A stretch of 64,000 bases of DNA from Stutzerimonas nosocomialis (GTDB taxonomy: Bacteria > Pseudomonadota > Gammaproteobacteria > Pseudomonadales > Pseudomonadaceae). The notes beneath the pieces were generated by a model. It saw only the letters and a list, made by a program, of their open reading frames with translations, searched no databases and was not told the DNA's origin. The translations under genes and the position numbers were made by a program. Location: the NCBI RefSeq assembly GCF_005876855.1, contig NZ_QLAE01000019.1, forward strand, positions 1-64,000, written 5' to 3'. Position 1 is the stretch's first letter. Every line of letters starts with the position of its first letter. Positions 23,762 through 41,383 of this stretch are shown here, piece by piece.

Positions 23762-25823
23762 CAGCCTCGTAGTGTTCACGCCTAGGGCAGAGTGGGATGC
23801 AGCAGAGAACTTAGGCGATTTTATCGCGATGAGCCGGTCTCAACTGACCATTTTCGGTACTGGTCTTCGTTTTAACGATATGACGTGGGATGTCACCGAC
23901 ACCATGCAGCTGAAGGCGCATGGTAAGAAGCGGATCCGCATCTGCTTCTCTACTCAAGAAACAGTGGACGACATACAGCCAACTCAGATGGCCGAGCCGT
24001 TTGTGTCTTTTGCCAAAGCTTACGTCCGCTACATGCAGGGTATGCGGCCAACGAAGAATCCTGCTTTTCGAGTCACTGCGCTGCGCGCCCTTGATGCCGC
24101 TTTCAGGGTGAGCGGTCACTTGATCCCGGTGATGATGGATGGCGACACGTTTAATCGAGCTGCGCGAATTATCGCTGAGCGCCTCTCAGGATCTACGGCC
24201 TATCGAGTAGGGACTCAGCTCGAGTTGATTGCCAGGTTTATGTCTGAGCACCGTCTCACAGCTATTCCGCTATCGTGGCGTAGTCCGATCAATCGACCGC
24301 TCGATACGGTTCGTGTGGGGCAGGAGTTTGACAAGCGCCGTACCGAAAAAATGCCATCTCAAGCCGCATTGGAAGCGCTTCCTAAGACGTTTCAAATTGC
24401 GACCCAACCTAAAGACGTGCTGTTTTCGTCGATTGCCGCGATTCTCTGCTCTGCTCCTGATCGTATCAATGAGGTGTTACTGCTTGCCGAGAGCTGTGAG
24501 GTTCATGACAAAACTTCAGGCGGTAAATATGCCTACGGTCTGCGATGGCAACCGGCTAAGGGGGCTGATCCAATGGTTAAATGGATTATTCCCTCGATGG
24601 CTCCCGTTGTCGCTGAGGCCATCGCCAAAATTAGGCGTTTGACGGAAGACGCTCGTCGTATTGCTCAATGGTATGAGTTTAATCCTGCAAGGCTGTATCT
24701 GCCCCACGATTTGGAACACCTCAGGAGGCAAGAGCTGCTGACAATGGATGAAGTTCAGCAGGTGATTTTGCTGGAGAAAGGGTCCGCTTCATTTGCGAGG
24801 CTATGGTGCACTGCAAATAATGTGTTGTTGATTAGGAATGACAGTGGTGTATGCGCGCGATTTGCTGATGTTGAAAAGGCCGCAATAGCGCAACTTCCAT
24901 CCGGGTTTCCGCTGCTAAACACGGAGATGGGACTCAAATATTCGGAGGCGCTCATCGTAGTGCGGCGTAATGAACTCCACTCTGCAAGAGGTACATTTGG
25001 CTGTGTCATTGAGTCGGTCAGCATCAATCAGGTGAATACTGCACTCGGCACCAGAAGTGAGCATGGCTTTGAGTCGATGTTTGAGCGCCTTGGATTCACT
25101 GAGCCAGATGGCAGCCAAATCCGAGTATCTACCCATCAGTTCCGTCACTACCTGAACACCCTGGCGCAGGCGGGGGGGATGAGCCAGTTGGATATTGCGA
25201 AGTGGTCGGGGCGCTTGGATGTTCGTCAAAACGAGGCTTATGACCATGTGAGCGCAGATCAGATGGTGGCAAAGATTCGCGAGTCCATTGGCGACGAATC
25301 CCATATGTTCGGCCCGCTGGCAAAGCTGCCGAAGAATATCCCGATTTCACGAGATGAGTTTGCACGGCTTAAGATTCCGACAGCCCATACGACTGACTTT
25401 GGCTTCTGCGTCCATGATTACACGATGATGCCATGCGACCGGCATGCCGACTGCATCAACTGCAACGAGCATGTATGCGTGAAGGGCGATGAAGGCAAAG
25501 CCATGATGGTCAAACGTCGGCTACAGGATGCGCAGGAATTGCTGGTGCGTGCTGAAGCTGCGACGGTGAAGGGCTACTACGGAGCGGATCGCTGGATGGA
25601 GCACCATAAGAAGACTGTACTACGTCTGATACAGCTTACAGAGATTCTTGATAACCCAGCAGTTCCAACCGGCTCTGTAATTCAGCTGGCTGATGTTCCG
25701 ATCATTTCTTCGACGGGAGTGGAGCAAGCGCTCGAGGATCGCGCCGCATTGGATGGTTATTCGACGCTAAAGCGCTTGGCGCCGACTAACGCTAGCCGAA
25801 TGAAGCGGAGCAAGCATGGCTAA
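23754..25823 (+). CDS. Tyrosine recombinase 3 of the island trio (large)
   Basis: Largest recombinase, 689 residues from the ATG that overlaps the previous stop by 8 bp (ATGCCTGA). An in-frame ATG at 23730 would lie deeper in the upstream gene. Catalytic residues: Arg in APDRINEVLLL (about 235), HQFRHYLNTLA (about 461) and KWSGRLDVRQNEAYDHV with the final Tyr (about 484-500). A Cys/His cluster follows (GFCVHDY ... PCDRHADCINC ... HVCVKGD, about 551-580), probably a zinc site shared in style with recombinase 2. It resembles TnpB/GmtZ-like integrases. It ends with an 8-bp overlap with the small gene downstream. Confidence 0.88.
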   Translation: MPDSLVVFTPRAEWDAAENLGDFIAMSRSQLTIFGTGLRFNDMTWDVTDTMQLKAHGKKRIRICFSTQETVDDIQPTQMAEPFVSFAKAYVRYMQGMRPTKNPAFRVTALRALDAAFRVSGHLIPVMMDGDTFNRAARIIAERLSGSTAYRVGTQLELIARFMSEHRLTAIPLSWRSPINRPLDTVRVGQEFDKRRTEKMPSQAALEALPKTFQIATQPKDVLFSSIAAILCSAPDRINEVLLLAESCEVHDKTSGGKYAYGLRWQPAKGADPMVKWIIPSMAPVVAEAIAKIRRLTEDARRIAQWYEFNPARLYLPHDLEHLRRQELLTMDEVQQVILLEKGSASFARLWCTANNVLLIRNDSGVCARFADVEKAAIAQLPSGFPLLNTEMGLKYSEALIVVRRNELHSARGTFGCVIESVSINQVNTALGTRSEHGFESMFERLGFTEPDGSQIRVSTHQFRHYLNTLAQAGGMSQLDIAKWSGRLDVRQNEAYDHVSADQMVAKIRESIGDESHMFGPLAKLPKNIPISRDEFARLKIPTAHTTDFGFCVHDYTMMPCDRHADCINCNEHVCVKGDEGKAMMVKRRLQDAQELLVRAEAATVKGYYGADRWMEHHKKTVLRLIQLTEILDNPAVPTGSVIQLADVPIISSTGVEQALEDRAALDGYSTLKRLAPTNASRMKRSKHG

Positions 25824-26271
25824 AAGGCGAGCAAGAAATCTCGATGATCATGCCATCGAACACATTGTCTGTGTGCTGGATGGGTGGTCAGGTAAGCTTT
25901 CTTGGGATCTGCTCATTGAGGCAATTGAGAAGCGACTGGGTGTTCGTTACACGCGTCAGGCACTCGACAAGCGCGCCCGTATTAAATCGACATACCAGGC
26001 TACTAAGGCGCGTCTTAGCAAGGTGCCTGGTTCGTGGCTCCACCAAAAATTATCTACTGCAGAGGTTGGAGCGCTTACAGAACGTCTTAAGCGCTTGGAG
26101 GCCGAGAACGCTCGCCTGAAAGTGGAGAACGAATGTCTGCTCGAGCAATTCGTGACTTGGGCCTATAACGCATATTTGAAAGGGATGACGAAAGAATCTC
26201 TGAGCACGCCCCTTCCTCGCGTGGATAGAGAGCTGACTAAGCTTACCCGCACAGAGATTCGCAGGCGGTAA
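25816..26271 (+). CDS. Small coiled-coil accessory protein of the recombinase operon
   Basis: A 151-residue basic protein. The N-terminal half could form a small helical DNA-binding fold. A heptad stretch follows (ALTERLKRLEAENARLKVEN, about residues 90-115), and the tail is rich in Lys and Arg. Its position after three recombinases and its size match TnpC of Tn554-like elements or GmtX of Gamma-Mobile-Trio elements; this is inference from architecture. The 8-bp overlap ATGGCTAA with recombinase 3 indicates coupled translation and so a common function. It has no catalytic motif. Confidence 0.75.
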   Translation: MAKRRARNLDDHAIEHIVCVLDGWSGKLSWDLLIEAIEKRLGVRYTRQALDKRARIKSTYQATKARLSKVPGSWLHQKLSTAEVGALTERLKRLEAENARLKVENECLLEQFVTWAYNAYLKGMTKESLSTPLPRVDRELTKLTRTEIRRR

Positions 26272-27842: not shown

Positions 27843-29186
27843 TCACTTCACCCTCCAGGAATCTGTTACACCAGCAAGCCAGTTTTGAACAGCGATGATA
27901 CGTTGCTCCACTTCATGGACGTAAGCATCTGCATCGGCATCTGCCACATAGCCATTAGCGACATCAAAATAAGGTCCCCACTCCAATTCGGCAATGTCTT
28001 GGTATCTCTTCTCAAGAGTGTCTGTACCTAAAATCTCATTCATAGATGGGGAAAAGCTGTCTTTTGCCGCATTGTAGCGCAAATGCGCTAATAGCTCTTG
28101 CATAAACCAAGCAACTTGGCTAGGTAGTCCCGTATTGCTCTGTTTGCTGTATACAGTTGGTATGAGTTCATCATATTTTGTTTTACTGTAACGGGTGTGC
28201 ACGTAGTGCTTTCCATATACACACACGCACGTGAAATGGCTGAACGGGTGGCTTACGATGCCGTGAGGCCGAGCCTGGTAGTAGTAGCCATTCATGTAGA
28301 AGTCATAAATGTGCTTGCAAATGGTTTTTTCAGTAAGTTTGCTTTCGAATGCAAAAACACCCTTGAACATCGGTGGGTAGCCATCGTCAAGACGGCCGGC
28401 ATGATGCAGAATATCCAAACTATTCTTTAGTTGCCTTGCATCCAGTTGAGTCTTTACTTCGATTACGGCTCGCACGGAGTTTGCTGGAACGACGACTAAG
28501 TCTCCCTCTCTGAACAGTGGCGCGTAATCAATTCGGTCATAAATTAGTACATCAAATTGCCTAGCGCAGTCGTAAATGAAGCCTGAAGCAACGTGATATC
28601 TCTCAGGTAGATGCTTGCGAAGCATACTGGTCAGCAATTTTTCGCGATACCCTCCGACAGTGGCACCATGTGAGATAATTAAGCGAACTCGCTGACTAAG
28701 AGCTTCGAGTTCACCAGCCATTGATGCAGCGAAAATTCTTCTCTTCTCAATTTCCTTCTGATGTTTACCATGCTCTAAGTAAACCGCTTGTTTAGCGAGG
28801 TTTTTACCTGTGGTGGCTTTAAGATGGCCTTCGGAGATTAAAGCCTTGAGCATGAATGCTATTTGCTCATTAGAGGCATTAATTCTCTTATCGTTGCTAA
28901 CCTTCTCGAGAATCTGGGTCAAAGAGATTTTTTGAGTGTGGCTTATCAGAGAGCTTGTGACGTCCAGTACGAATCGATAAAGCTCAAGATCTGGAGGGCA
29001 TTCTAGATGGGCGCGTATGGAAAAGGGGTGAAGTTCAATCTTTTCCGTACTCGTCAGTTTTCGTTTGAAAGACGATCGGACGTCCTTGATTAGTAAAGAG
29101 CCACTTTCATCTTGCCCCGCGAAACGGTAGAGTTTGAGATCTTCCCATGCATCAGTACTAACGAAGCAAAGGTCATCCAAATTCAT
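27843..29186 (-). CDS. DUF6602-like protein, putative PD-(D/E)xK nuclease
   Basis: A 447-residue protein. Residues 1-150 look like a helical, winged-helix-rich N-terminal region. From about 173 the pattern HGATVGGYREKLL, LPERYHVASGFIYD, FDVLIYDRIDYAPLF and RAVIEVKTQL follows. This matches DUF6602-type domains and a restriction-endonuclease-like fold, with Asp212/Asp217, Glu243 and Lys245 as likely metal and catalytic residues. The gene is AT-rich and sits 84 bp downstream of the ABC-3C cassette on the same strand, so it could be a fourth component or a separate defence gene. Nuclease activity is inference. Confidence 0.7.
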   Translation of the reverse strand: MNLDDLCFVSTDAWEDLKLYRFAGQDESGSLLIKDVRSSFKRKLTSTEKIELHPFSIRAHLECPPDLELYRFVLDVTSSLISHTQKISLTQILEKVSNDKRINASNEQIAFMLKALISEGHLKATTGKNLAKQAVYLEHGKHQKEIEKRRIFAASMAGELEALSQRVRLIISHGATVGGYREKLLTSMLRKHLPERYHVASGFIYDCARQFDVLIYDRIDYAPLFREGDLVVVPANSVRAVIEVKTQLDARQLKNSLDILHHAGRLDDGYPPMFKGVFAFESKLTEKTICKHIYDFYMNGYYYQARPHGIVSHPFSHFTCVCVYGKHYVHTRYSKTKYDELIPTVYSKQSNTGLPSQVAWFMQELLAHLRYNAAKDSFSPSMNEILGTDTLEKRYQDIAELEWGPYFDVANGYVADADADAYVHEVEQRIIAVQNWLAGVTDSWRVK

Positions 29187-29270
29187 ATCTGTTTCCTTAA
29201 AGATAGATATTGCCTGTTAGAGTAGGATTTTGGCCGTGATATGTGTTGGCTAGACTGTCGCCTACTCCAA

Positions 29271-31598
29271 CTAACTGGCTTCTCTGCTCAGGGCTTGCAT
29301 GTTGAATGTTAGAGGCAATAGGCCGGCTCTTGTGAATCGATACCTCATATACGAGGAGATTTCATCCTCGTGAGATGAGACAATTAATTGCCTATCTTTA
29401 AGTTCGCAGCGCAGAAGATCCGTCAAAGATGCAATGTTTACCTCGTCCAGGGATTGAGACGGATCGTCGATCATAATTATGGGGACGCCTGAGTAGACTC
29501 TATTCAATGAGAGGAAGAAGGCGAGACTCAATGCCGATATCTGGCCAGAGCTCATGGATAACATTGCATCGTGATCTGAATATTCAGCAGTCGCAAACCT
29601 GAGTTGATTGCCGTCTTTGCTTTCAATGAATAGCCCAAGTCCGCGCTGATAGTTCTGAATTAGCCTTCCGCTGTATACGTGGAATACCAGTTCTATTTCA
29701 GATATTGTGTGGTCGGAGTAAGCTTTTTCTACTCGCTCCAAGGTTCCGCGCAAGGATGCAACTCGCTCCTTGATTCTGGTTGTCGCTTTATTTTCCTTTC
29801 GGATAGTATCCAGTCTTTGAGTGATGCCTATCAGTGTTGCACTCTTTGCTTCGTTTGCTTTAAGTGAGATGTACTTTAGTTTTGTCTCTAGCGCGTCGCG
29901 CTCTAATACATAGAAATCTGCCTCGTCCTTGAAAGCGGTGGATATTACAGAGCTCCACTGATCTGGAATGTCTGCAATTTCTTCTTGCTTTTGAGCGCGA
30001 AACAAAGCAATCAAATCCGCTAACCGCTTCTCCTCTTCCTCAGGATCTATCGTGTACGTGTCTGGGTAGAGGATCCCTCTTTTGGTAAGCTGGTCGCCGA
30101 GATCTTGTATTCGTTGAATTATCTCTTTATGCCGGCGAAGCACCTGGTGAAGATCTGGATCATAGTTTGATCTTTCGAACTTTAGATCGCTAGTTACACG
30201 CGCAGTCAAAACTGATATAGCCTTTGCTATCGATTCGATTACCTGTACAAGTTTTTTACCGTCCTCGCTTAGGCTCTCAGATAGCTTTTGGGCTCTTTTC
30301 TCTATTGCAGAGAGTAACTCTTCGTGCGTCTTCCAATCCTGCGAACACAGTGGACAGGTATTGTCATTAGGATAAATTTTGAAATGCTTTTCAAGGAGTT
30401 CGCTTTTTAGCCTGCTAATTTCGGCAATAGCTGCGGCGTTCGCTGCTGAGGAAGAGTTTAGTAGGTCACGACTTTTAATCTGCTCTTCAAGGTCGGGAAA
30501 CTCGTCAGGTTGCCAGCCAGGAGTTGTACGAATTTCATCAAACACAATGCTCGCTGCACCCTTTTCCAGAGTCGACAGAGACAATGACAAAGAGTCGACA
30601 TTGGATTTTGTTACGGATAGCGCGGTGAGCTCTCCTGTGGTCTTGCCAACTTGGATTAGAGCTCGTAATAGATTGTTGTTTTTGGAGATGTAGTTCTCGA
30701 TTTTTTCATTGGATATTCTAATCTTGATAGCTTGCTTTAAAGGCAGTAAATCGATTATGTTGCGTATCTCTGTGACATAATTGTCGTGAATTTCTTTTGA
30801 GTATCCAGAAAATAATACTTCCTTGTCCCAGCTCGGTTGAATGTCGGCAGTGCTAAGCTTCTCGTATGCGGCACCTTCCAGTCCGTTCTCTAGCATTGCG
30901 CGGAGTGCTTGGCCTTCTCTATCAAGTCGAGACTCTTCTTCCTGGCGCTCTTTGCTGAGCCTCTGAGTTAATTTCTTTTCCAGGCGCTTGCACTTGCTAA
31001 TTTATGCAACTATAGCGCCTGATTGGATTAGGCTTTCAAGCGCCTTCTTTCGGTTATTTAGGCTGGTCGAAAAAAGATACTCATTCTGGCCTTGCTCTAG
31101 GTAGTTCAGAAAGGAGTAATTTTCTTGGAAATTTTGTCCAAAAAGCTCGGCTATTAAATCATCGCTTTTCAGGTTCTCATCAGTAAAGTCGGTTGATTCA
31201 AAGCTGTCTAACTTATAGAGCTTGAATAGTGAGAAATCGTTCGCCTTATTTTTGTCTTTTGGCCAGAGGCTTTCGCTTGGCGCATGTCTAGCGAGAACTA
31301 TTTTTTCATCGTCTGACTTGAACTCAATTTTTATGTGGAGATCGTTGCCTTGAGATCGCACATTCCAGAATAAGTTGTCCTCATACTTCTTCTTCGTTCC
31401 AATCATTACTTTATCGAAAAGGCGCTCAATTCTCGCTATTTTTCCTGTCAGGAGCAGTTCGATAGCATCAAAAATACTGGTCTTCCCAAAGCCGTTTGGG
31501 CCGTCTAAAGTTAAGAGTGAAGCGGACTCTAAATTCAGAGATATATTTTTGAATGCCTTAAAGCTGGCAATCTCAATTCGGGATATTTTCCAGTTCAT
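29271..31598 (-). pseudogene. ABC-3C Rad50/SMC-like ATPase, split by an in-frame stop
   Basis: ATPase component of an ABC-three-component system. The N-terminal 198 residues contain Walker A GPNGFGKTS (about 33-41) and the Q-loop area YLEQGQNEYLF, then end at TAA (31004-31002). The same frame continues without any shift through KRLEKKLTQRLSKERQEEES into a 541-residue open segment (ATG at 30896). That segment holds coiled coil, a CPLC zinc-hook-like motif (about residue 180), the signature SSGQISALSLAFFLSL, Walker B IIMIDDPSQSLDE and the H-loop VSSHEDE. A full protein would have about 775 residues. A single base change (for example AAA or CAA to TAA) explains the break. Read-through, split-subunit function or a sequencing error are alternatives. 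Confidence 0.85.
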
Positions 31599-32247
31599 TT
31601 TTAATCAATTCCTTGATTAGATCGTCTGTGGCAATGTCATCGCTTTCGGGGATATTTTGGATTTTTTTATAAAGCTCTGTTAGCTCTGACTCTGCTACCG
31701 CAGCCTCTGCCTGAAGCTTTAATGGAACCAGTTCGCGCTTTTCATGGTTCAGTATGAGGAATGGGATCTTTATGAATATTTTTGCGGCAATGCTGTAGGT
31801 AGACGAGGAGAGAGGAGAGTCTTTGTAAGAGTCAAATTGGTTCTTGTCTGATATGGTGCGTAGAAGGTCTGCAAACTCGAATCCAGCTAAGCAATCCTCC
31901 TCCTCTTTTGTGTAGTAAAGTACGTACTTCTTGTAGTGGTACGCGTCTTCTTCAATTGCGAAGATTTTATCTTCTAGCTCTTTGAAGTCCGCGAGTTTTT
32001 CTAATCTTAGCAAACAAATTAAGTCGCAATTTTTCTTGAAGGCGGGGTGCTCGACGAACTCCCTAGGGGCGCTAAAAGAGGCCGCTTCATTTAGTGATTC
32101 TGGAGGCCGCAGCACCGTCATTTCATGCACAATCGCGAAGCGGGCTGCTTCCCCATGCAGGCGAAGAAAGTAAGAGGATTGCTCCGACTCATGAGCCAAA
32201 GAAAATCCTTGCTCATTTAATGCGTTGCTGATTATTCCTCTAAGCAT
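31573..32247 (-). CDS. ABC-3C system middle component
   Basis: A 224-residue protein between the effector and ATPase genes. It overlaps the effector stop by 8 bp (ATGCTTAG) and the ATPase start by 26 bp. The segment HPAFKKNCDLICLLRLEKLA and the C-terminal acidic/helical tail resemble the middle-component families of ABC-three-component systems; this is recognised by position and pattern. Its family role is to link the SMC-like ATPase to the effector. No catalytic motif is visible. The frame is intact, unlike that of the ATPase. Confidence 0.72.
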   Translation of the reverse strand: MLRGIISNALNEQGFSLAHESEQSSYFLRLHGEAARFAIVHEMTVLRPPESLNEAASFSAPREFVEHPAFKKNCDLICLLRLEKLADFKELEDKIFAIEEDAYHYKKYVLYYTKEEEDCLAGFEFADLLRTISDKNQFDSYKDSPLSSSTYSIAAKIFIKIPFLILNHEKRELVPLKLQAEAAVAESELTELYKKIQNIPESDDIATDDLIKELIKNELENIPN

Positions 32248-33463
32248 TTAACTTTCCTTCTGCATCCAGTTTTGTTATGACGTTTATGCTCAGTTCGCGA
32301 GTGATTTTGTTGTCTTGACTGTCCGCTTCGTATTTTGGGTCTGAACCATCATTCTCTGTAATCTTTGTTTCGACTCGGAATGAGTTGAGAGATGAGAATG
32401 CAATCAAGTTGCGGTATTCAAAAAGGAGTGGTTGGAGTCTTCTGTTATTCTTCATCTCCTCCCTGATCCTGTCTATGCATGCGCGGCATTCGCGATCGCT
32501 TAACAATGTTAGTGCGGTAGGTAGGTAGAAATTTGAGTCAGAGTCTATGTAATGGGGCAGGCGCTGGAGAATAGGGTCGATACAGAAGTCCTGAATTAAC
32601 TCAGAGTATCTTCCGATGTCTTCGTGTTGTATCTTTGAAAAACTTTCGGAAGGCTTCATGACTTGGCAGAGACGTAGGAGATCTTCTGGGTATAATTTGT
32701 GCAGGTGTTTGAATAGATCTTGAGCTCTTAGATACTGCTTGTCATTTATTTCCGGTAGCAGGTCGTCAAGTGTTTTTTCGAGATGGTTGAAGAGGTTCTT
32801 TCTTAGCTCTGTTGCAAAGTATTCGACATCATTTTGCAGCCCTTCGGATAGTATGGCGGCTAGAAGTTTGGAGGCGTGTATACGATTCTCAAAAGCTGCC
32901 TTATTCTCAGAAATTCCATCGATTTGATTAATTTTATGGATTTCTATGGCCTTGCTACTGATGCTTTCCGAAATTAAGCAATAATTTTGGTCGGTGAGGC
33001 GTTCGCTTGGTGGAAAGCCCTTGGTGTCATTAAATATGTTTTTTATAAGATCTTTGGTGATCCCTTCTATTTGACCGAGCTCGCAGTATTTTTGGTCGTT
33101 ATACTTATAAAAACTTACGGTCTCGCCGTTCCCCGGGCTGTAGTCCGATGTGTCATCTATTTTTACTGATACGTGGAAATACCGTTTGGTCCCGGCCTTT
33201 CTGTGATTATCAATCTCTGCGGATTTTTTTAGCGCTTTAGCGTAGCTGCCTCTGGTTGAGCCAACCTTTGCTTTGACTTGATGGGCGCTAAGAAGCTTTC
33301 CATCTTTATATATTGCAAAGTCATCGGTGCTGTCTAGCTGCAGCTCGAATTCTCTTTCGCCCTCAAGGATTAATTTTAAACAGTGATAAAGGGCGACCTT
33401 TCCTTGATATACAAACCCACTCCATGAGGAGATTGCGCTATCTGGCTCAGTTAATTCGCTCAA
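32240..33463 (-). CDS. ABC-3C effector with N-terminal nuclease-like domain
   Basis: First gene of the cassette, 407 residues, starting at TTG behind GAAGGG. The N-terminal part shows SSWSGFVYQGKVALYHCLKL, then ELQLDSTDDFAIYKDGKL and HQVKAK. This gives a DD ... QxK set (Asp47/48, Gln62, Lys64) typical of restriction-endonuclease-fold effectors in ABC-3C and Cap4-like proteins. The C-terminal part (about 230-400) is helical and is probably the part recognised by the ATPase/middle component. The predicted role is DNA cleavage upon phage sensing, by analogy. The gene is intact. Confidence 0.75.
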   Translation of the reverse strand: MSELTEPDSAISSWSGFVYQGKVALYHCLKLILEGEREFELQLDSTDDFAIYKDGKLLSAHQVKAKVGSTRGSYAKALKKSAEIDNHRKAGTKRYFHVSVKIDDTSDYSPGNGETVSFYKYNDQKYCELGQIEGITKDLIKNIFNDTKGFPPSERLTDQNYCLISESISSKAIEIHKINQIDGISENKAAFENRIHASKLLAAILSEGLQNDVEYFATELRKNLFNHLEKTLDDLLPEINDKQYLRAQDLFKHLHKLYPEDLLRLCQVMKPSESFSKIQHEDIGRYSELIQDFCIDPILQRLPHYIDSDSNFYLPTALTLLSDRECRACIDRIREEMKNNRRLQPLLFEYRNLIAFSSLNSFRVETKITENDGSDPKYEADSQDNKITRELSINVITKLDAEGKLNA

Positions 33464-33752: not shown

Positions 33753-34199
<447 letters not shown>

Positions 34200-34275: not shown

Positions 34276-34608
34276 TTATCTGAAGGTGAGTTCCTCCAGT
34301 GCCAAGACCAAACTTTCAATCGCGTGTGCGCTGGTTTGCGACGACGCGATTAATCGTTCGACTCGGGACAGCAGATGTTGAGGTGGCCCCATGCTGCACG
34401 GATAGATCGCTATTTGCAGATATGTGCAAATTCTCTCAACATTCTTGCTAATGCGCACAATCTTTCCCTGCTCAATCCTGGACAGTTGAGAGTGATGTAC
34501 GCCGCACGCAGATCCCAGCTGTACAAGGGTCAAGCTACGGGCTGTGCGCGCTTCCCGAATCTGTTTTGCGATCTGGGTGGCAGATAATGTATGGAATTTT
34601 TCGGTCAT
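34276..34608 (-). CDS. XRE/HipB-like helix-turn-helix regulator
   Basis: A 110-residue regulator. The HTH is visible in QIREARTARSLTLVQLGSAC and continues GVHHSQLSRIEQGKIVRISK, close to HipB-type antitoxin/repressor folds. The C-terminal helix probably serves dimerisation. The ATG at 34608 is preferred over one at 34617, because a long palindrome overlaps the more upstream codon. It is divergent from the DUF4031 gene. The operator at 34611-34638 covers both starts, which points to repression of itself and of the + strand genes. Confidence 0.82.
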   Translation of the reverse strand: MTEKFHTLSATQIAKQIREARTARSLTLVQLGSACGVHHSQLSRIEQGKIVRISKNVERICTYLQIAIYPCSMGPPQHLLSRVERLIASSQTSAHAIESLVLALEELTFR

Positions 34609-34610
34609 AA

Positions 34611-34638
34611 TGTGCATAATATTTGCACATTATGCACA
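34611..34638. promoter_or_regulatory. Long palindromic operator between divergent genes
   Basis: TGTGCATAAT (34611-34620) and ATTATGCACA (34629-34638) form a perfect 10-bp inverted repeat around an 8-bp spacer. A second pair, GTGCA ... TGCAC, is nested inside. It touches the XRE start and lies 12 bp from the DUF4031 start, with its last base in the AGGGA ribosome site. It is a clear candidate binding site for the XRE protein. Confidence 0.75.
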
Positions 34639-34650
34639 GGGAAGCCAGTC

Positions 34651-35019
34651 ATGGCCGTCTACGTAGATTCTGAAGAGATCCGCTGGAAAGGGCGCGTGTG
34701 GTGCCATCTGGTTGCTGATTCTCTTGACGAGCTTCACAGCTTTGCGGCTCGATTGGGTCTTCAGCGTAAGTGGTTCCAGAGCAAGAGCTTTTACCCCCAC
34801 TACGATGTGACGCTGTCAGTCAAAGCTCAAGCTATGCGGCTAGGAGCCATTCACGCAGATCGCAGGAAGATCATCGGGTGCTGCAAGCAGATGCGAGCAC
34901 AGTTGCTGGCGCAAAGGGTGCAGCAGCAATCGCCGCTCGATTCAGGAGGAATGCATGGCACCTATTGCCAGACAGCAGGAGCGACCCTTATCGCTGCCGG
35001 AGTACGCGCTCAAGGCTAG
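34651..35019 (+). CDS. DUF4031-family protein
   Basis: A 122-residue product. The first 85 residues have the family pattern: VYVDSEEIRWKGRVWCHLVA, DELHSFAARLGLQRKWFQ and KAQAMRLGAIHADRRK. The function of the family is unknown; its members often sit near nucleotide and phage-related genes. An AGGGA ribosome site lies before the ATG. The last 65 bp overlap the next gene in another frame, so the C-terminal tail after about residue 100 may be less meaningful. Confidence 0.75.
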   Translation: MAVYVDSEEIRWKGRVWCHLVADSLDELHSFAARLGLQRKWFQSKSFYPHYDVTLSVKAQAMRLGAIHADRRKIIGCCKQMRAQLLAQRVQQQSPLDSGGMHGTYCQTAGATLIAAGVRAQG

Positions 35020-36181
35020 CAACAGCTCTCGCTTCAAAGAAGATCCCAAAGCGCTGCAGGTTTTACGTTTTGGCTTCTTCGGTGAAGTGGGAGGATTGCT
35101 GTCTTCGGTGAAGAAGGCAGAGCGTGACCGGCTTGAGGAAACTCAAAGCGAAGTCGCAGCTGAGGAGCTTGGAGATGCTTTGTGGTACTTGGTAAGGGCT
35201 GCCTCGATCCTGCGGTTCACGCCAGATGAGCTGGGGGAAAGTTGCCTGACGGTGCTGAGGCAACGTTTCAAGGAGGGCGAGTGCCCTCCTATTGCGACGG
35301 TGAATTTCAGGCACATTGATGCACTGATCAATACGCGCCGCCAGGAGGACGGCTCCTCTGCAAGGGCCATCCAGCTTGGCGCGCTAGCTCATGCGGCCGG
35401 CATCTTCTGCAATATGCCTGATGGGCAATTGAGGTCCGGTCCGACTCCCACGCTTAGGGATCACCTTGGCGGTCTGCTGGCGGATTTGGCCCTCAGCTGT
35501 GCGAGTTTCGATCTTCACCTTGAAGATGTGGCCCGATACAACCTGGAAAAGATCAAAAGCCGGTGGCCAGGCGAAGATCGGCAGTTCACCCCGTACTTCG
35601 ATCCGGAGCCCGACTTCCCTCGCTACGAGCGGCTGCCTAGGGAGCTGAAGATGGACTTCATCGAGCTGCCGGGGCGCAATGGGCCTTATGTCGTGCAGCA
35701 GCTGAACGGTGTCTTCATCGGCGATCGTTTGACGGATAATAGCAATCAGCCCGACGATTACCGTTTCCACGACGTCTTTCATCTTGCCTATATGGCGTAT
35801 CTTGGATGGTCGCCAGTTTTGCGTGGTTTGCTGAAGCTCAAGCGTAAGTCGAATCCCGTCATCGATGAGAATGAGGATGGGGCTCGGGCCATGATCATCG
35901 AGGAAGGGATCGCAACTTGGATCTTCAACCACGCGAAGCGCAGAAGATTTTACAAGGGCATCGAAGAAGGGGCCCTTGAATATGGCCTGCTCAAGCAGAT
36001 CCATTCCATGGTTGAGGGATATGAGGTTTACCAGTGCCCGTTATGGCAGTGGGAGCTGGCCATCCTGAAAGGGTTCGAGGTATTTCGAGAGCTTCGTACC
36101 AAGCGATCCGGGACCGTAGTGGTCGATATGGTCAACCACCAGCTGACCTTCCAACCTCTCATCGAAAAGAATCTTGTGTGA
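34955..36181 (+). CDS. MazG-like nucleotide pyrophosphohydrolase
   Basis: A 408-residue protein with an N-terminal MazG-like helical domain. FGFFGEVGGLLSSVKKAERD (about 31-50) and EELGDALWYLVRAASILR (about 70-88) supply the Glu/Asp metal ligands (ExxxD type) of all-alpha NTP pyrophosphatases. The C-terminal half contains YRFHDVFHLAYMAYLGWSPV and MIIEEGIATWIFNHAKRRRF, which looks like a second, diverged copy. MazG-type enzymes remove non-canonical or excess nucleoside triphosphates. An AGGAGGA ribosome site lies 4 bp before the ATG. It overlaps DUF4031 by 65 bp and shares one base with the next gene (TGATG). Confidence 0.78.
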   Translation: MAPIARQQERPLSLPEYALKASNSSRFKEDPKALQVLRFGFFGEVGGLLSSVKKAERDRLEETQSEVAAEELGDALWYLVRAASILRFTPDELGESCLTVLRQRFKEGECPPIATVNFRHIDALINTRRQEDGSSARAIQLGALAHAAGIFCNMPDGQLRSGPTPTLRDHLGGLLADLALSCASFDLHLEDVARYNLEKIKSRWPGEDRQFTPYFDPEPDFPRYERLPRELKMDFIELPGRNGPYVVQQLNGVFIGDRLTDNSNQPDDYRFHDVFHLAYMAYLGWSPVLRGLLKLKRKSNPVIDENEDGARAMIIEEGIATWIFNHAKRRRFYKGIEEGALEYGLLKQIHSMVEGYEVYQCPLWQWELAILKGFEVFRELRTKRSGTVVVDMVNHQLTFQPLIEKNLV

Positions 36182-36855
36182 TGACTCCCACCTCTTTCGT
36201 GAAAGCCTTAGCCAGCTTGAGTCTGGACGATGTTTTCAACCCGTATGCGGATACATGCCCCCTGCATGACCGGACAGATGCGGCTTCGTACCGGCGGGCA
36301 AACCTGCGGACATATCTCAGCGCCGCGGCAGACATCGGGGTCGATACCATTTGGATGGGACGAGATCTCGGCTATCGGGGTGGGCGCAGGACTGGCTTGG
36401 CACTGACGGACGAGTTCCATTTGGCGGAGATGGCTAAGGTGTACCCAGGTTGTACGTCCCGGCAGGCCACAAAAGGCCCTGTTATTTCCGAGCGAACAGC
36501 CGCGGAGATCTGGAGGGTCTTGAAGGTGATTGAAAAGCCACCTCTGCTTTGGAATGTCTTCCCATTTCATCCGCACGAGGCGGATAACCCTTTGACCAAC
36601 CGACGCTTCAAAGCGAAGGAGCTCGCTCTGGTGAGCGAACTGAACAATGCATTGATCAAATGGCTGAAGGTTCGGAGGATCATCGCAATCGGTCAAGATG
36701 CCGCCAGTTATGCGACAGCCTTTGGGGTGGAGGTTCTGACTGTCCGACATCCGAGCTACGGTGGGGTGCGAGACTTCCGGGATGGCATGAGACAGATCTA
36801 TGGAATTCCGGAAGGCCTCTTGGGGGCTAGGTCGCCGCAAGGGGTGCTTTTATAA
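36181..36855 (+). CDS. Uracil-DNA glycosylase superfamily protein
   Basis: A 224-residue product with the UDG fold pattern. VFNPYADTCPLHD lies near residue 20 and WMGRDLGYRGGRRTGLAL carries the glycine-rich loop. WNVFPFHPHEADNPLTNRRF (about 120-140), RIIAIGQDA (about 168) and the DNA-intercalating motif VRHPSYGGVRDFRDG (about 185) follow. The first motif lacks the usual GQDPY wording, so it belongs to a divergent branch. It starts at the base shared with the MazG-like stop codon. Its end overlaps the convergent thymidylate-synthase-like gene by 29 bp. The predicted role is removal of uracil or a related base from DNA. Confidence 0.75.
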   Translation: MTPTSFVKALASLSLDDVFNPYADTCPLHDRTDAASYRRANLRTYLSAAADIGVDTIWMGRDLGYRGGRRTGLALTDEFHLAEMAKVYPGCTSRQATKGPVISERTAAEIWRVLKVIEKPPLLWNVFPFHPHEADNPLTNRRFKAKELALVSELNNALIKWLKVRRIIAIGQDAASYATAFGVEVLTVRHPSYGGVRDFRDGMRQIYGIPEGLLGARSPQGVLL

Positions 36856-37666
36856 GCGTTTCATCGATTGGAAACGTTTCAAGCAGCCTGCTCGCTGCGC
36901 GGATGCCGCCGAAGCCGTCATCCAGCTTGGCGTATGTCGATATGCAGGTCAGCGTCCCAGCTTCGTAGCCCGACTCCGTTGCGACGTACTGCTGCAGCTG
37001 GGCCAACCCGATCAAATTGCCCAAGGCCCTTTGAGCGTAGTGGTGGGATCTGTAGATGGCCGTTAGGTCGATTTTCCCGTGCATCAGCTTGAAGGTCACA
37101 TGGCTCAGGCAGGCTGAACCGTAATACTTATGCCGGTCAGAGCTCGGGTCGTAGGTAGGCAGCTCAAACCCGACGCCATTGAGATCTTCTGCAAGGTCCA
37201 CAGCTGGATCGCAAACACCCAGCTCATAAGCTGCCACGTAACGATTTAAATTTTTTGTGCGGATAGCGGCCAGTTTTTCAATAATTTTTTCAAGTGGGTT
37301 GAACGTTACGCCACTTTCATCCTTTCGCTCAATCATGCGTAGCGCATAGGTGCCCCAGCTGCGAGGAGCCATACCGCGCGCCATAATCGTTTTATAATGC
37401 GCGTACCACCCCGGGCGTCCGTAGCGCTTGTAAATGGTCTGCGGGAAGATCGTCCCCGCTGCAGTCATCACCGTGCGCTCTGCATTGCGCTGCCGCAGGG
37501 CCTGACTTACTGAGATGACTACCTGGCGGTCTTCGCTCGTTGCCGCCTGAGGCGAGGTGACTTCCAGGATGACATTGGTGGCATCGTGGTTTTTCTGGCT
37601 TTCCAGGTAACGGATACCGGCCAACCACGCTTGTACTACACGAGACCTCTGGAACACTTCCGTCAT
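36827..37666 (-). CDS. Thymidylate-synthase-like enzyme
   Basis: A 279-residue protein of the TS / dNMP-hydroxymethylase superfamily. The block ACLSHVTFKLMHGKIDLTAI with catalytic Cys186 is followed by YRSHH (about 205-209) and LGNLIGLAQLQQYVA, matching the QRSxD ... N pattern of the family. The usual Asp after RS is a His here, and the C-terminal HxY motif is altered (ISTYAKLDD). Substrate and product may therefore differ from dUMP/dTMP. It is last in a five-gene minus-strand operon, overlapping the protease stop by 4 bp (ATGA). It is not the housekeeping thyA. Confidence 0.75.
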   Translation of the reverse strand: MTEVFQRSRVVQAWLAGIRYLESQKNHDATNVILEVTSPQAATSEDRQVVISVSQALRQRNAERTVMTAAGTIFPQTIYKRYGRPGWYAHYKTIMARGMAPRSWGTYALRMIERKDESGVTFNPLEKIIEKLAAIRTKNLNRYVAAYELGVCDPAVDLAEDLNGVGFELPTYDPSSDRHKYYGSACLSHVTFKLMHGKIDLTAIYRSHHYAQRALGNLIGLAQLQQYVATESGYEAGTLTCISTYAKLDDGFGGIRAASRLLETFPIDETLIKAPLAAT

Positions 37667-38280
37667 CTATCAGCTCCGTAAATACATGATGCATGGTTCG
37701 TCAGGTAAGAATGCGGTACCCATGCGTGACCGTTAACCCCCCAAGACAATCCCCAGCTATTGCAGATCAGGTAATGCTCGGTGCCCGCTTGGTCGTCACC
37801 GTAGCCCACGATCACTACTGCATGCCGACCTGGGAAAACATTCATTTCGAATGACACAACACCATCCACGGGGGACATGAAAGACCTGGTCAATGAAACC
37901 AGAACGCCTACAGGCCTGCCGAGATTCAGCCATTGCTTGATTTTGCCCAGGTCTGCTGCGGCCAGTGTCATATGAGGGCCATAAAGTGAGAGGCCTGTGG
38001 GCAACTCTGGTAGCGGATGGCTTGGCTCATCCTGTTGGTACGGGACGTCATGGTCTTCCGGCAGCCCTGCCGCTGTCGCCGCAATGGCGATTCTTACGTC
38101 TAGGCCTTCGTTGGGCTTCCAGGTGGGGCTTTGGTGTACGGTGGCTAGGTATGCGTATTCGGGACTGAGCAGGTAGTTCGAAAGGTTGCCTTTGATCCCA
38201 GCGAGCGAGAAAGCTACGCACGAACCTCTGCTTCCTTGGTCCCTAGCGCTCATCGATATCATTACGCGCGGTTGAATCAC
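37663..38280 (-). CDS. Papain-like C1 family cysteine protease
   Basis: A 205-residue protein. The active-site Cys21 lies in ARDQGSRGSCVAFS, His in FPGRHAVVIVGYGDD and Asn in LICNSWGLSWG, the full papain triad in the right order. The GTG at 38280 overlaps the upstream stop by 4 bp (GTGA) and has a GAGGAAG site, so it is preferred; an ATG at 38262 is possible. No signal peptide or pro-domain is visible, so the enzyme looks cytoplasmic and ready to act. That is unusual for bacterial C1 peptidases and fits regulation by partners in the operon. Confidence 0.82.
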   Translation of the reverse strand: MIQPRVMISMSARDQGSRGSCVAFSLAGIKGNLSNYLLSPEYAYLATVHQSPTWKPNEGLDVRIAIAATAAGLPEDHDVPYQQDEPSHPLPELPTGLSLYGPHMTLAAADLGKIKQWLNLGRPVGVLVSLTRSFMSPVDGVVSFEMNVFPGRHAVVIVGYGDDQAGTEHYLICNSWGLSWGVNGHAWVPHSYLTNHASCIYGADR

Positions 38281-39293
38281 AGTCGGCCACTTCCTCGAAG
38301 CAAGGCTTCCTTGGCAGCGGAAGAAAGACCGTTCGCTAAACTTTCGAATTGTGCCTGTGTGTCGAAACTGTCGAGCGGCTGCGCCGAGCGATCCCACTGT
38401 TTGCGCTCACTAAGCTGGAGCTTCGAGGGGCCGGTTTGTAGAGCGGGAGCAGGGCAAATCAGATACTCCTGGTAGTGCTCGCCACCAGCGATCAGCGCAC
38501 CTTCATCTGTGGCGCCTTGCTGCGGCAGCAACACCGGCTTAATCATGAAGCCTTCTGAGGATGCCTCGCTGGTATCCCAGACGTAACCGGCACCGGAGTG
38601 GTTTTTTAACCGCACCAGCATTTGATCATCGATGCGCGGTTCGAGAATGAGGTCTCGATCGGCTTCATCCAGCAACCACACATCTCGTTGGGAATTCTCC
38701 AACGGCTTGGACAGTAGAGCCTTCTTGATTGCCGCCGGTTGGACGCGCAGCACCTCGTCAACGACTGAGCGATCAAGTAATCGAAGCCTCTGAAGTGACC
38801 AGGCGGTAGCTGAATAGCTGATACCGAGCCTCAGGGAAAGCTGATAAAGGTTGAACGGGTGCGCGAGATCTGCCACTCCCCAGCCTTTTCGCTTCATAAT
38901 CTTTGCGACAGCCCAGCGGGGCGCCACGAGGCTGTAGGCGAACCAATCGGCTTCCAATTCTTTCTTTGCGGCGGTATTGCTGTAGTCGAGCCGCTCGTCT
39001 GTCGTCGTGCCGTGATCCAGGTAGAAGTGTCCGAGCTCATGAGCACAGGTCATTTGGATAACACCGGCCGGACGCTCGGAATTTACGAGAATTCCTGGAT
39101 GGCTCTCGCTGATGAAGGCCCCCCAGAGCTTTTCCAGCGGCCGGAGCATGACGACCACCCCGGCGGATTGGGCAATCCGGAATGGATCAATACGCGTGTA
39201 GCCGTCTTCCTCGATGCGGCGCTTCGAACCTGACTCTCTAACAACCTCTGCGGCACGCGTGGTAACAGCTCTGATTTGACTTGCAGAGAGCAT
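38277..39293 (-). CDS. ImmA/IrrE-family metalloprotease
   Basis: A 338-residue protein. The zinc motif HELGHF (about 85-90) and the downstream glutamate in AAKKELEADWFAYSLVAP define the ImmA/IrrE (gluzincin-like) domain. It is followed by a 200-residue C-terminal extension of unknown role. Family members cleave partner XRE repressors to turn on mobile-element or stress genes. The XRE gene is directly upstream (9-bp gap) in the same operon, so a repressor-protease switch is likely. It overlaps the C1 protease gene by 4 bp. Confidence 0.85.
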   Translation of the reverse strand: MLSASQIRAVTTRAAEVVRESGSKRRIEEDGYTRIDPFRIAQSAGVVVMLRPLEKLWGAFISESHPGILVNSERPAGVIQMTCAHELGHFYLDHGTTTDERLDYSNTAAKKELEADWFAYSLVAPRWAVAKIMKRKGWGVADLAHPFNLYQLSLRLGISYSATAWSLQRLRLLDRSVVDEVLRVQPAAIKKALLSKPLENSQRDVWLLDEADRDLILEPRIDDQMLVRLKNHSGAGYVWDTSEASSEGFMIKPVLLPQQGATDEGALIAGGEHYQEYLICPAPALQTGPSKLQLSERKQWDRSAQPLDSFDTQAQFESLANGLSSAAKEALLRGSGRL

Positions 39294-39302
39294 CCCTATC
39301 TC

Positions 39303-39653
39303 CTAATTGGCTTTTTTAGCCCTCAAGAAATCAGCAAATCGAGCGACTTCATCTACGTCCTTCTGAGTCAGTCCTTTGACTGCCCTGGCTAGGAAAGCAA
39401 ATTGCTCGGGGCCGGAGTAGCTGGGCTCGCAGCCTGTGAGCAGGTACTCGACTGACCGCCGATAGATGCTTGAAAGCCGTTTGAGCTCTGTTACCTCAAT
39501 TTTGCGAGCACCGGACTCGATTCCAGTTATTGCTGTACGGGGAAGCCCTACGAGCTGGGCAATTTCGGCTTGCGAAAGCCCCAAATACTCCCGAGCAGAC
39601 CTCAATCTCTCTGCGATCTGGAGCCGTTCTTCATCATTCTCAGTTTCACTCAT
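39303..39653 (-). CDS. XRE-family regulator paired with ImmA/IrrE
   Basis: A 116-residue protein. The HTH lies in RLRSAREYLGLSQAEIAQLV and continues GLPRTAITGIESGARKIEVT. The C-terminal part (SVEYLLTGCEPS ... LTQKDVDEVARFADFLRAKK) is typical of SinR/ImmR-like repressors cut by ImmA proteins. It starts at 39653 (MSETENDEERLQIAERL) with an 8-bp overlap with the upstream stop (ATGAGTGA). It probably represses this operon. Confidence 0.85.
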   Translation of the reverse strand: MSETENDEERLQIAERLRSAREYLGLSQAEIAQLVGLPRTAITGIESGARKIEVTELKRLSSIYRRSVEYLLTGCEPSYSGPEQFAFLARAVKGLTQKDVDEVARFADFLRAKKAN

Positions 39654-39921
39654 CTTCCTTCGCCAGGTACGTGAGTACCCCCTCAGTGACTTGTTGAATG
39701 AATTGATCGCGTGACTCGTAACCGCCGTTACGGATGATGACTTCCACCGGAATTTTCTGGCCAACGAGCACGTCGATATCGATCATCGCTTCACAAGCGG
39801 TCAACGAGTCCATAGGTGCGCCCAGGTCATCAATAGATGTGGGGTCGCTGGCTATGGCAATTTCTCGCTCATCCCAGAACACACCCAGCAAATCTTCGAT
39901 TTGGTTTTGAAGTGACGTCAT
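39646..39921 (-). CDS. Acyl-carrier-protein-like small protein
   Basis: A 91-residue acidic protein. The pattern TSIDDLGAPMDSLTACEAMI (about 28-47) copies the DLGxDSL signature of acyl carrier proteins, with Ser39 as the possible phosphopantetheine site. The helix that follows (GQKIPVEVIIRNGGY) and the final helix also match the ACP layout. The ATG at 39921 is chosen; a longer frame to 40107 has no family-like content. TATAAT overlaps the start codon (CCTATAATG) with no clear ribosome site, so translation could be near-leaderless. It is first in the operon with XRE, ImmA, C1 protease and TS-like genes. ACP assignment is by eye only. Confidence 0.55.
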   Translation of the reverse strand: MTSLQNQIEDLLGVFWDEREIAIASDPTSIDDLGAPMDSLTACEAMIDIDVLVGQKIPVEVIIRNGGYESRDQFIQQVTEGVLTYLAKEDE

Positions 39922-40258: not shown

Positions 40259-41383
40259 TCACATTCTTAGCTCAAAAAGCTCGTCTACGAACTGGTTAAC
40301 CTCGGCTGCCGCGTAAGAGTTAGGTGCTACATCCAAGACAGAGTGGAAGTAGCTAAATCTGGTCCATAGGCTACGATTGCGATTGTAATCGTGAGTTACT
40401 GTCTCATGCGCCGATGTGAAATTGGACTTTAGTAGTGGAATGCCCAGCTTGGTGATATTAAACAGTATGCTTTCACGCTTTTCCTTCTCGTCGGCTTTGG
40501 ATTGATCCAGCTCCATTGCAATTTCTTCGCTGATTTCAACGTAGTCGCCAACGTATTCTTCTAGCTCTATGCTTCTGCCTCCAACATCGCATCTTGTAAT
40601 AAGGCCGAATAGCATTGGGTTTTTCTTCTTCTTGAGTAGGCGCTTGAAGTGAGCAATAAAGTTTTCCGCGCTATAAATGGACTGCTGGCAATTGCTGTCT
40701 AGAACTAACACCACGAGATCAACGAGGTCTCGTACTTTTTCTAGGCTACGGTTTATATCGAAAAGAACGTAGTCATAGTTTTTTTTCAGTTGCTCGTAGG
40801 TTTTCTTCGCATTTCTCTTTCGCTCAAGCCTTTCGGATAGTTCGCTATGGATCAGTGGCCTGAGGTCTATGGTTGATATTGGTTTGTGCGCTCTATTGCG
40901 GTTTAATTCTTTCTCTAGTTTTCTGATTTCAGACTTGGAGAAGAGAATATCTAGCTCATCATAAAAGCTAATTTGGCTTACCAATGAACCAGGTTCTGGG
41001 CTATCCCCTTTCTCAATTTTGCACGTATAAACAATATCGTTGGTCACAATAGCCACCTTAAAACCGCGCTGTACCAAGCAGGCGGCTACATCCACAGTGA
41101 TCGGGGACTTTCCTACGCCACCTTTGTAGGCTGTTATGGATAGGGTTTGCCCAGACTCAGATTCAAAAATGTAATCTTTCAGTTCAGGCGGGATAGCTAT
41201 GCCTGAACGGTGAAAGAAGCACCACAGAGACCTGCGCGTTGGATTCCTTGATGACGAGTCAAAGGCCGATTCATACGATCTCCATGTGCGGTCTTTCACT
41301 CCCGCCCAGTAGGCGGCCTGAGGCACGCTGATGAAGTTCGACTCGCGTGCATGTTTCAGGCATTTACGAAGATGATTTTCCAT
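40259..41383 (-). CDS. ParA/MinD-like ATPase with N-terminal DNA-binding part
   Basis: A 374-residue protein. Residues 1-70 resemble a helix-turn-helix module (SVPQAAYWAGVKDRTWRSYE). The P-loop domain starts with ITAYKGGVGKSPITVDVAAC (87-94 is the deviant Walker A, KS-P instead of KT-T). YDYVLFDINRS follows as the A'/Walker B region with DINRS in place of DxP. The family separates DNA or positions complexes. At the right end of the island it may stabilise or regulate an excised form. The gene is strongly AT-rich. No ParB partner was found in the island. Confidence 0.78.
   Translation of the reverse strand: MENHLRKCLKHARESNFISVPQAAYWAGVKDRTWRSYESAFDSSSRNPTRRSLWCFFHRSGIAIPPELKDYIFESESGQTLSITAYKGGVGKSPITVDVAACLVQRGFKVAIVTNDIVYTCKIEKGDSPEPGSLVSQISFYDELDILFSKSEIRKLEKELNRNRAHKPISTIDLRPLIHSELSERLERKRNAKKTYEQLKKNYDYVLFDINRSLEKVRDLVDLVVLVLDSNCQQSIYSAENFIAHFKRLLKKKKNPMLFGLITRCDVGGRSIELEEYVGDYVEISEEIAMELDQSKADEKEKRESILFNITKLGIPLLKSNFTSAHETVTHDYNRNRSLWTRFSYFHSVLDVAPNSYAAAEVNQFVDELFELRM

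Follow-up and report, generated by a model that had tools for sequence, protein, structure and literature searches.

A stretch of 64,000 nucleotides from Stutzerimonas nosocomialis (contig NZ_QLAE01000019.1; the whole stretch is called the window here) carries a conserved set of about seven genes in which a two-protease switch seems to be linked to enzymes acting on a pyrimidine base, altering and removing it in nucleotides and DNA. Five minus-strand genes, encoding an acyl-carrier-protein-like (ACP-like) protein, an XRE repressor, an ImmA/IrrE metalloprotease, a papain-like (C1) cysteine protease and an enzyme of the thymidylate synthase (TS) fold, converge with plus-strand genes for a DUF4031 protein, a MazG_C protein and a uracil-DNA glycosylase (UDG)-like protein. 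Judged by its genes and their surroundings, the module is probably a defence against invading DNA; that it is an inducible conflict module, most likely directed against phages or mobile elements, in which a protease switch controls pyrimidine-base effectors, is a plausible reading that we hold tentatively. It rests on the gene set and its order, the active-site residues, the TS and UDG folds, the coupling of a chagasin-type inhibitor domain to the C1 protease, the exchange of the UDG for an HMUDK_hel protein, and residence on plasmids and islands, all read from sequences and models.

An original prediction, made from the letters of the window, had described five tightly joined minus-strand genes facing a MazG-like/UDG-like pair. 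Its gene set proved exact on re-checking, as did the overlaps of 8 bp (ACP/XRE), 4 bp (ImmA/C1) and 4 bp (C1/TS), the 9-bp gap between XRE and ImmA, and the 29-bp overlap of the TS and UDG genes, which lie tail to tail; all genes listed in Table 1 are intact open frames. Two further plus-strand genes, for the MazG_C and DUF4031 proteins, join the claimed set, the latter being optional (6 of the 50 complete clusters described below).

Conservation of the gene set

Relatives were collected with the TS-like protein by a plasmid search (20 records, with coverage of 80% or more in 18) and by an alignment search of a genome collection, from which the best 80 of 196 relatives were used; P0004 alone, run against the genome collection, gave 26 stretches, none confirmed as a relative. 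Ninety-nine loci (numbered with the prefix L) formed 57 clusters at 80% TS identity, 50 of them complete, meaning that 2.5 kb or more was available on either side. Presence was counted within 6 kb, and all loci in the order counts were obtained via the TS-like protein. The members found of the series ACP-XRE-ImmA-C1-TS stand in this order on one strand in 50/50 complete non-redundant loci, so the grouping is not a matter of chance, and the UDG lies on the opposite strand in 38/38. The original prediction had staked itself on the homologs being found together elsewhere, and this order on plasmids and islands bears it out. ImmA is present in 50 complete clusters, XRE in 48, ACP in 47, C1 in 47, MazG in 45 and HMUDK_hel in 11; genes missed by the script yet present include an annotated helix-turn-helix (HTH) gene in L004, annotated ACPs in L011 and L016, and a MazG fused to HMUDK_hel in L033. 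Some copies appear to be decaying, with TS in pieces in L003 and L026, and ImmA and C1 in pieces in L086.

Carriers, from loci baited with the TS-like or HMUDK protein, belong to Pseudomonadota, Acidobacteriota, Myxococcota, Planctomycetota, Nitrospinota, Actinomycetota and Cyanobacteriota, together with one haloarchaeon (an archaeal plasmid). Eleven of the 20 plasmid records are conjugative and one viral contig (L097) has the module, while 50,697 phage records gave no match. One locus (L015), with a truncated TS and no other module gene found, was kept out of the counts. Thirteen further loci from a phylum search of Pseudomonadota (L102-L114), where the TS-like match lies in open frames of about 500-790 aa, were also kept out; the two scanned, L103 and L106, combine TS with a pterin-binding DUF4346 domain, L106 also with HAD, and by sequence this is a different, divergent TS family.

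Plasmid comparisons independent of the TS bait, made on the records listed, separate the module into parts. The 20 TS records include UDG in 14, HMUDK in 5 and neither in 1 (a truncated TS), and 16 of 20 C1 records have TS; one of the four C1 records without TS was opened and holds a larger protease gene without the gene set. Among 40 UDG records listed (of 45 in all), TS occurs in 14, MazG_C in 23 and HMUDK in 0, and the 34 MazG_C records have UDG in 23, HMUDK in 9 and neither in 2. From these overlaps, C1 and TS are tightly tied and UDG-MazG is a separable cassette. In two cyanobacterial plasmids ACP, HTH, ImmA, TS, HMUDK and MazG share one strand, the annotation of the first gene being ACP in one plasmid and hypothetical in the other, and in L033 (8847-10778) HMUDK_hel, MazG and MazG_C are fused in one 644-aa protein; these arrangements argue that both halves serve one function.

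Exchange of the base enzyme

A single slot for a base enzyme holds the UDG in 39 of the complete clusters (38 by script and L043 by eye), HMUDK_hel in 11 and both together in 0; searched without the TS bait, the 40 listed UDG matches and 21 HMUDK matches share 0 plasmid records. Mapped onto the TS tree, the UDG label requires 4 changes, of which well-supported branches force at least 3, and the HMUDK label 5 (at least 4 forced), so the exchange occurred more than once, its details being unsure given the long branches. Structure prediction gives the UDG-like protein a SMUG1 fold, ahead of other UDG families; its profile reaches solved UDG structures weakly (E 0.07-0.3), and PF03167 matches the relative in L012 (34.1 bits, above cut-off) and not the window protein. 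5-Hydroxymethyldeoxyuridine (5-hmdU) is among the principal SMUG1 substrates (PMC7922111, in part), and DNA of the hydroxymethyluracil (hmU) phage SP8 is heavily degraded by hSMUG1 plus Endonuclease VIII (PMC6449724, in part). HMUDK_hel, in turn, is named in Pfam as the helical domain of phage 5-hmdU DNA kinases. Because the UDG is exchangeable with a protein of that family, we favour a C5-substituted uracil over plain uracil as the base concerned; that both exchange partners are tied to one base appears to be the strongest hint at the chemistry.

PF18723 covers HMUDK_hel nearly full length in five proteins of variant loci. The P-loop pattern occurs in 0 of 15 standalone HMUDK_hel proteins (one a fragment), which by this mark do not class as 5-hmdU DNA kinases; separate thymidylate-kinase-like genes lie near HMUDK_hel in L006, L023 and L097. 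MazG residues E44, E70, E71 and D74 are kept in 44-45 of 45 proteins. Eight UDG loci without the TS operon were opened. MazG adjoins in six (L116, L117, L118, L119, L123 and L124), and L120 and L125 have a UDG without annotated MazG; TIR genes lie beside four (L116, L117, L118 and L123) and SIR2 within 7 kb in two (L118 and L119). The MazG_C-UDG pair beside TIR spans 5862-7669 in L116, 5898-7666 in L117, 5853-7645 in L118 and 5829-7660 in L123, and a layout of TIR, small gene, MazG and UDG recurs in three of these four. An HMUDK locus with no annotated TS/ImmA set and with its HMUDK gene in two pieces (L126) indicates that HMUDK_hel is not restricted to the module.

TS-fold enzyme and carrier protein

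Pfam scans of single window proteins found no family for the UDG-like, TS-like or ACP-like protein. TIGR03283 matches 42/42 TS-like members, the window protein at 45.4 bits against a family cut-off of 174.55; membership of the ThyA family by sequence was dropped on this score, and we therefore file the protein as TS-fold, not ThyA. Structure prediction gives it a TS fold, the model being closest to dCMP hydroxylases and MilA. C186, R206 and N217 are present in 42/42 members, and from known TS roles we take them to be the catalytic Cys, the phosphate Arg and the uracil-reading Asn.

The ACP-like alignment profile matches solved ACPs at 8.9e-6, and the phosphopantetheine attachment Ser (S39) is kept in 40/40 members, preceded by D in 35 and followed by L in 22; four relatives bear an acyl carrier protein annotation. 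Diverged members in L121, L122 and L127 score below 7 bits with the ACP profile, with a Ser in similar context by eye. Genes of ACPS/phosphopantetheinyl-transferase (PPTase) type accompany 8 of 11 HMUDK-type clusters vs 4 of 39 UDG-type clusters (Fisher p 1.2e-4), three of the eight matches being weak at 29-32 bits (L032, L044 and L051), and the Pfam ACPS family occurs in 4 of 123 flank open reading frames (ORFs); such neighbours support a working, loaded ACP. dCTP-deaminase-like genes, found in 8 of 50 clusters (the L017 match is weak, 63 bits), could be a source of dUTP. The original prediction had also staked itself on predicted folds. TS and UDG hold in structure prediction; for ACP and C1, the support comes from profiles and active-site residues instead of models.

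A chagasin domain beside a papain-like protease

The ImmA proteins have about 100 extra C-terminal residues, and the ImmA profile, compared with solved structures, matches amoebiasin-2 of the chagasin family first (5.3e-10), followed by CapP (1.1e-9) and IrrE (5.8e-7). Chagasins are inhibitors of papain-like proteases, effective from pM to 100 nM (PMC7863939, in part). At E<=0.01, the chagasin family I42 matches 34 of 40 ImmAs of C1-bearing loci, as against 0 of 5 where no C1 gene separates ImmA from TS (even at E up to 1), an association with Fisher p 3.8e-4 when kinship is ignored. Of the residues in the chagasin loops (GY-W and RPW), G236, W239 and W300 are kept in 40/40 and Y237 in 35, which identifies an I42 domain for the family. 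With a chagasin profile built from ImmA alignment A7, scores of 51-109 bits are obtained for six ImmAs whose C1-bearing loci are of HMUDK type or unassigned: L022, L023 and L044, inside A7, and L003 and L006 (HMUDK type) and L024 (base enzyme unseen), which lie outside A7 and score 51-83 bits. Of nine ImmAs lacking a C1 gene in the interval from ImmA to TS, two were not reported and the other seven reach 5.1 bits at most. By these sequence comparisons, the inhibitor domain comes and goes with its presumed target, C1.

Active-site residues are kept in all five families tested. In ImmA, H85, E86 and H89 occur in 40/40 and E112 in 39 (HExxH plus third ligand); in C1, Q15, C21, H153 and N174 each occur in 41/41. 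By analogy with known pairs ImmA would cleave the neighbouring XRE, and its chagasin domain is predicted to inhibit C1. With a chagasin domain in ImmA and a papain-like protease encoded beside it, the anatomy suits the protease-switched pyrimidine module of the original prediction better than its author could tell. Two points of that prediction change: MazG-UDG proves separable, and the base is more likely a C5-substituted uracil than plain uracil.

Genes and neighbours in the window

Table 1. Genes of the module in the window (64,000 nt)
Feature	Position	Strand	Evidence
DUF4031 small protein, first gene of MazG-UDG operon	34651..35019	+	PF13223 6.1e-27
MazG + MazG_C protein	34955..36181	+	PF18722 6.9e-78, PF03819 2.3e-5
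SMUG1-like uracil-DNA glycosylase (UDG-like)	36181..36855	+	predicted fold
TS-fold enzyme, putative C5-pyrimidine modifier	36827..37666	-	profile + predicted fold
Papain-like (C1) cysteine protease, GTG start	37663..38280	-	PF00112 1.9e-14
ImmA/IrrE metalloprotease + C-terminal chagasin (I42) domain, about residues 205-312	38277..39293	-	PF06114 4.2e-12; PF09394 0.0024, below cut-off
XRE/HTH repressor, CapH/ImmR-like	39303..39653	-	HTH_3 3e-12; PADLOC capH 1.7e-12
Acyl-carrier-protein-like (ACP-like), first gene of minus-strand operon	39646..39921	-	ACP profile, attachment Ser

PADLOC models match only the kin of ImmA and XRE (capP, capH and others), the other six window proteins giving none at E<=0.1. 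The gene block lies within a region of 43-57% GC (20-42 kb); on its right the GC content is 65-71%, on its left 57-65%. Two adjoining tyrosine recombinases at 20.9-23.8 kb, followed by proteins of 697 and 151 aa without NCBIfam match, make window 20920-26271 a likely integration module. ABC-3C/LmuA-like defence genes span 27843-33463, including a RecF-like N-terminal part at 31002-31598 and an ABC-3C/LmuA-like gene at 32.2-33.5 kb; the ABC-3C ATPase seems to be in pieces. Small minus-strand ORFs at 33753-34196 resemble what we take to be IS3-type transposase remnants, and upstream of the ACP operon lies a ParA/MinD-like ATPase (40259-41383). An imperfect palindrome, TGTGCATAAT-ATTATGCACA (34611-34638), is a candidate element between the DUF4031-MazG-UDG operon and a HipB-like HTH gene that diverges from it (34276-34617, minus strand); the HipB-like gene may be a dedicated regulator of the MazG-UDG half, and akin HTH matches stand at the same place in L017, L020 and L021. 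At E<=1e-20 the TS-like gene occurs in 2 of 298 genomes of the family, the window's own being one.

Defence-type genes lie near some module copies: ABC-3C (the window and L121), caspase-like genes (L003 and L013) and Shedu (L012). GajA-like and Mrr matches occur in the flank sample, where conjugation and integration genes are equally frequent.

Proposed mechanism and alternatives

At rest, XRE would repress the ACP operon and the chagasin domain of ImmA would keep C1 inactive, as domain identity and co-occurrence suggest. A trigger would release both proteases: XRE would be cleaved by ImmA, as in ImmR/ImmA, C1 would cut some target, and operon expression would go up. The TS-fold enzyme, with phosphopantetheinylated ACP, may then add a C5 substituent to a uridine nucleotide, the simplest product being 5-hydroxymethyl-dU or a derivative, with MazG_C controlling the matching (d)NTP. 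The C5-substituted base in DNA would then be the target of the SMUG1-like glycosylase, which would remove it, or, in the variant loci, of HMUDK_hel, and we propose that replicating invader DNA would therefore become studded with abasic or altered sites. In its most specific form, an immune module of a class not described before, which produces a "marked" pyrimidine itself, the proposal is speculative and somewhat doubtful: a two-lock switch of chagasin-restrained C1 and ImmA, a TS-fold enzyme and ACP making an unusual dU derivative (the phosphopantetheine thiol perhaps capturing a C5 methylene intermediate or delivering the C5 group), a SMUG1-like glycosylase or HMUDK_hel turning the base into a lesion in replicating foreign DNA, and MazG_C protecting the host pool.

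Several observations weigh against a switched module of this kind. I42 is unmatched in 6 of 40 ImmAs of C1-bearing loci, and in the window's ImmA it falls under the Pfam cut-off (18.6 vs 27.2), with KQW in place of RPW. Joint control of the two convergent operons by XRE is unsupported, as no common operator emerged: across 43 loci, the best segments common to the regions upstream of the ACP and MazG operons did not rise above 20 shuffles each, apart from L002 (13 vs 11) and L026 (12 vs 11) above the shuffle maximum and L010 and L013 equal to it. By eye, no His-x-Tyr in the TS-like proteins aligns with the functional motif that ends the classical TS match, and the substrate may therefore be something other than dUMP. 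Relatives of the single-operon type (L121, L122 and L127) read Tyr-Ala for the conserved Tyr-Arg, with Cys and Asn kept, and maybe use a different substrate. Four complete clusters (L003, L005, L006 and L022) yielded no MazG and three (L011, L016 and L097) no C1, UDG-MazG and HMUDK_hel both occur without the TS operon too, and the glycosylase may act on plain uracil. The chemical part given to ACP is conjectural, and activity, target, trigger and phage phenotype likewise stand in the scheme as postulates. Plasmid conservation fits plasmid-serving functions as well as defence, the neighbour counts being raw and without a background rate.

Among other explanations, a guard against phages with uracil- or hmU-DNA, in which MazG removes the dNTPs, the glycosylase destroys phage DNA and the TS-like operon only senses or signals, strikes us as unlikely. 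The SMUG1-like fold suits it, UDG-superfamily Brig1 and Brig3 are proven antiviral effectors (PMC11078745, PMC13160076, both in part), and the UDG-MazG pair without the TS operon lies near TIR or SIR2 in 5 of the 8 opened loci; yet it leaves no role for a TS-fold enzyme with a kept active site and for ACP, together in most loci, and HMUDK_hel in the same slot is no known DNA-destroying enzyme. Hypermodification of the carrier plasmid's own DNA for protection, on the model of phage thymidine hypermodification and with the glycosylase purging unmodified precursor base, is improbable. It would account for the HMUDK_hel, dCTP-deaminase-like, thymidylate-kinase-like and PPTase genes near part of the loci and for the many conjugative carriers (11 of 20 plasmid records), but a SMUG1-like enzyme, expected to attack hmU, occupies the HMUDK_hel slot in 39 of 50 clusters, a switch built of two proteases speaks for a conditional output, and none of the 50,697 phage records matched.

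A toxin-antitoxin or addiction module, with C1 as toxin, chagasin-bearing ImmA and XRE as antitoxin and the nucleotide enzymes as passengers, has a ready-made toxin-inhibitor pair in chagasin beside C1, a plasmid location, and XRE matches to HipB- and MqsA-type antitoxin models, these below cut-offs. C1 is missing, however, where ACP-XRE-ImmA-TS-HMUDK-MazG persists, which makes the nucleotide enzymes a more constant core than C1, and we consider such a module decidedly improbable. Scarcely credible is a chance grouping of ordinary thymidylate/dUTP housekeeping genes: although the families relate to nucleotide metabolism, synteny refutes chance clustering, order and strand being invariant across phyla, and the set is rare in the family and flanked by mobile-element and defence genes. 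Plain uracil repair was considered and dropped. Defence is favoured by the plasmid and island location, the defence-type neighbours, TIR or SIR2 near UDG-MazG alone, and reported units with a TS or 5-hmdU kinase domain, which protect E. coli from phages (DefensePredictor, main text, PMC13092281).

Relation to known systems

CapH/CapP of CBASS (cyclic-oligonucleotide-based antiphage signalling systems) and ImmR/ImmA of integrative and conjugative elements share with the module an adjoining HTH repressor and HExxH metalloprotease, and the ImmA of ICEBs1 cleaves its repressor ImmR (PMC10233336, in part). Unlike these, the module has an extra chagasin domain, a C1 protease, and ACP and TS in the same operon. 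PADLOC matched none of the eight window proteins to a CD-NTase (cyclic-nucleotide synthase) model, and membership of CBASS was dropped. The anti-phage glycosylases Brig1 and Brig3 likewise place the UDG superfamily in defence surroundings, whereas the module's glycosylase has a SMUG1-like fold and has MazG_C and a regulated operon as partners; the best match of Brig1 was a family-4 enzyme.

Phage thymidine hypermodification (M6, ViI, phi W-14) shares HMUDK_hel and, as the likely common base, 5-hmdU (PMC6449724, in part). The 15 HMUDK_hel proteins tested differ in lacking the P-loop. TS-type enzymes are present in phages M6, ViI and phi W-14; ACP, the protease switch and UDG exchange are, to our knowledge, no part of phage thymidine hypermodification. 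MilA and phage AfhB are TS-fold base modifiers to which the TS-like protein is 14-16% identical. Unlike them it keeps Asn217, presumably as in uracil-specific TS.

DefensePredictor's TS/5-hmdU-kinase and predicted MazG-C/UDG systems have domains in common with the module and may be relatives of it; MazG-C, UDG and aGPT-Pplase are among its predicted defence domains, and the terms "acyl carrier" and "papain" are absent from its main text (PMC13092281). Parts of the module may have been noted before, since DefensePredictor lists such domains and cites Burroughs 2015. Full-text literature searches, which did not cover Burroughs 2015, returned no description of the gene set. On the evidence reached, and with the caveat that parts were possibly noted earlier, the module is new as a system.

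Implications

If the proposed reading is true, one mobile module would unite a protease cascade that brings its own inhibitor, chemistry on a carrier protein, and base excision or hypermodification, a combination of which we know no description. The chagasin/C1 coupling predicts that the inhibitor binds the neighbouring protease, and the UDG/HMUDK exchange predicts one C5-substituted uracil as the shared substrate of the two base enzymes. The standalone HMUDK_hel and MazG_C proteins that recur on bacterial plasmids (21 and 34 records) would gain a function as well.

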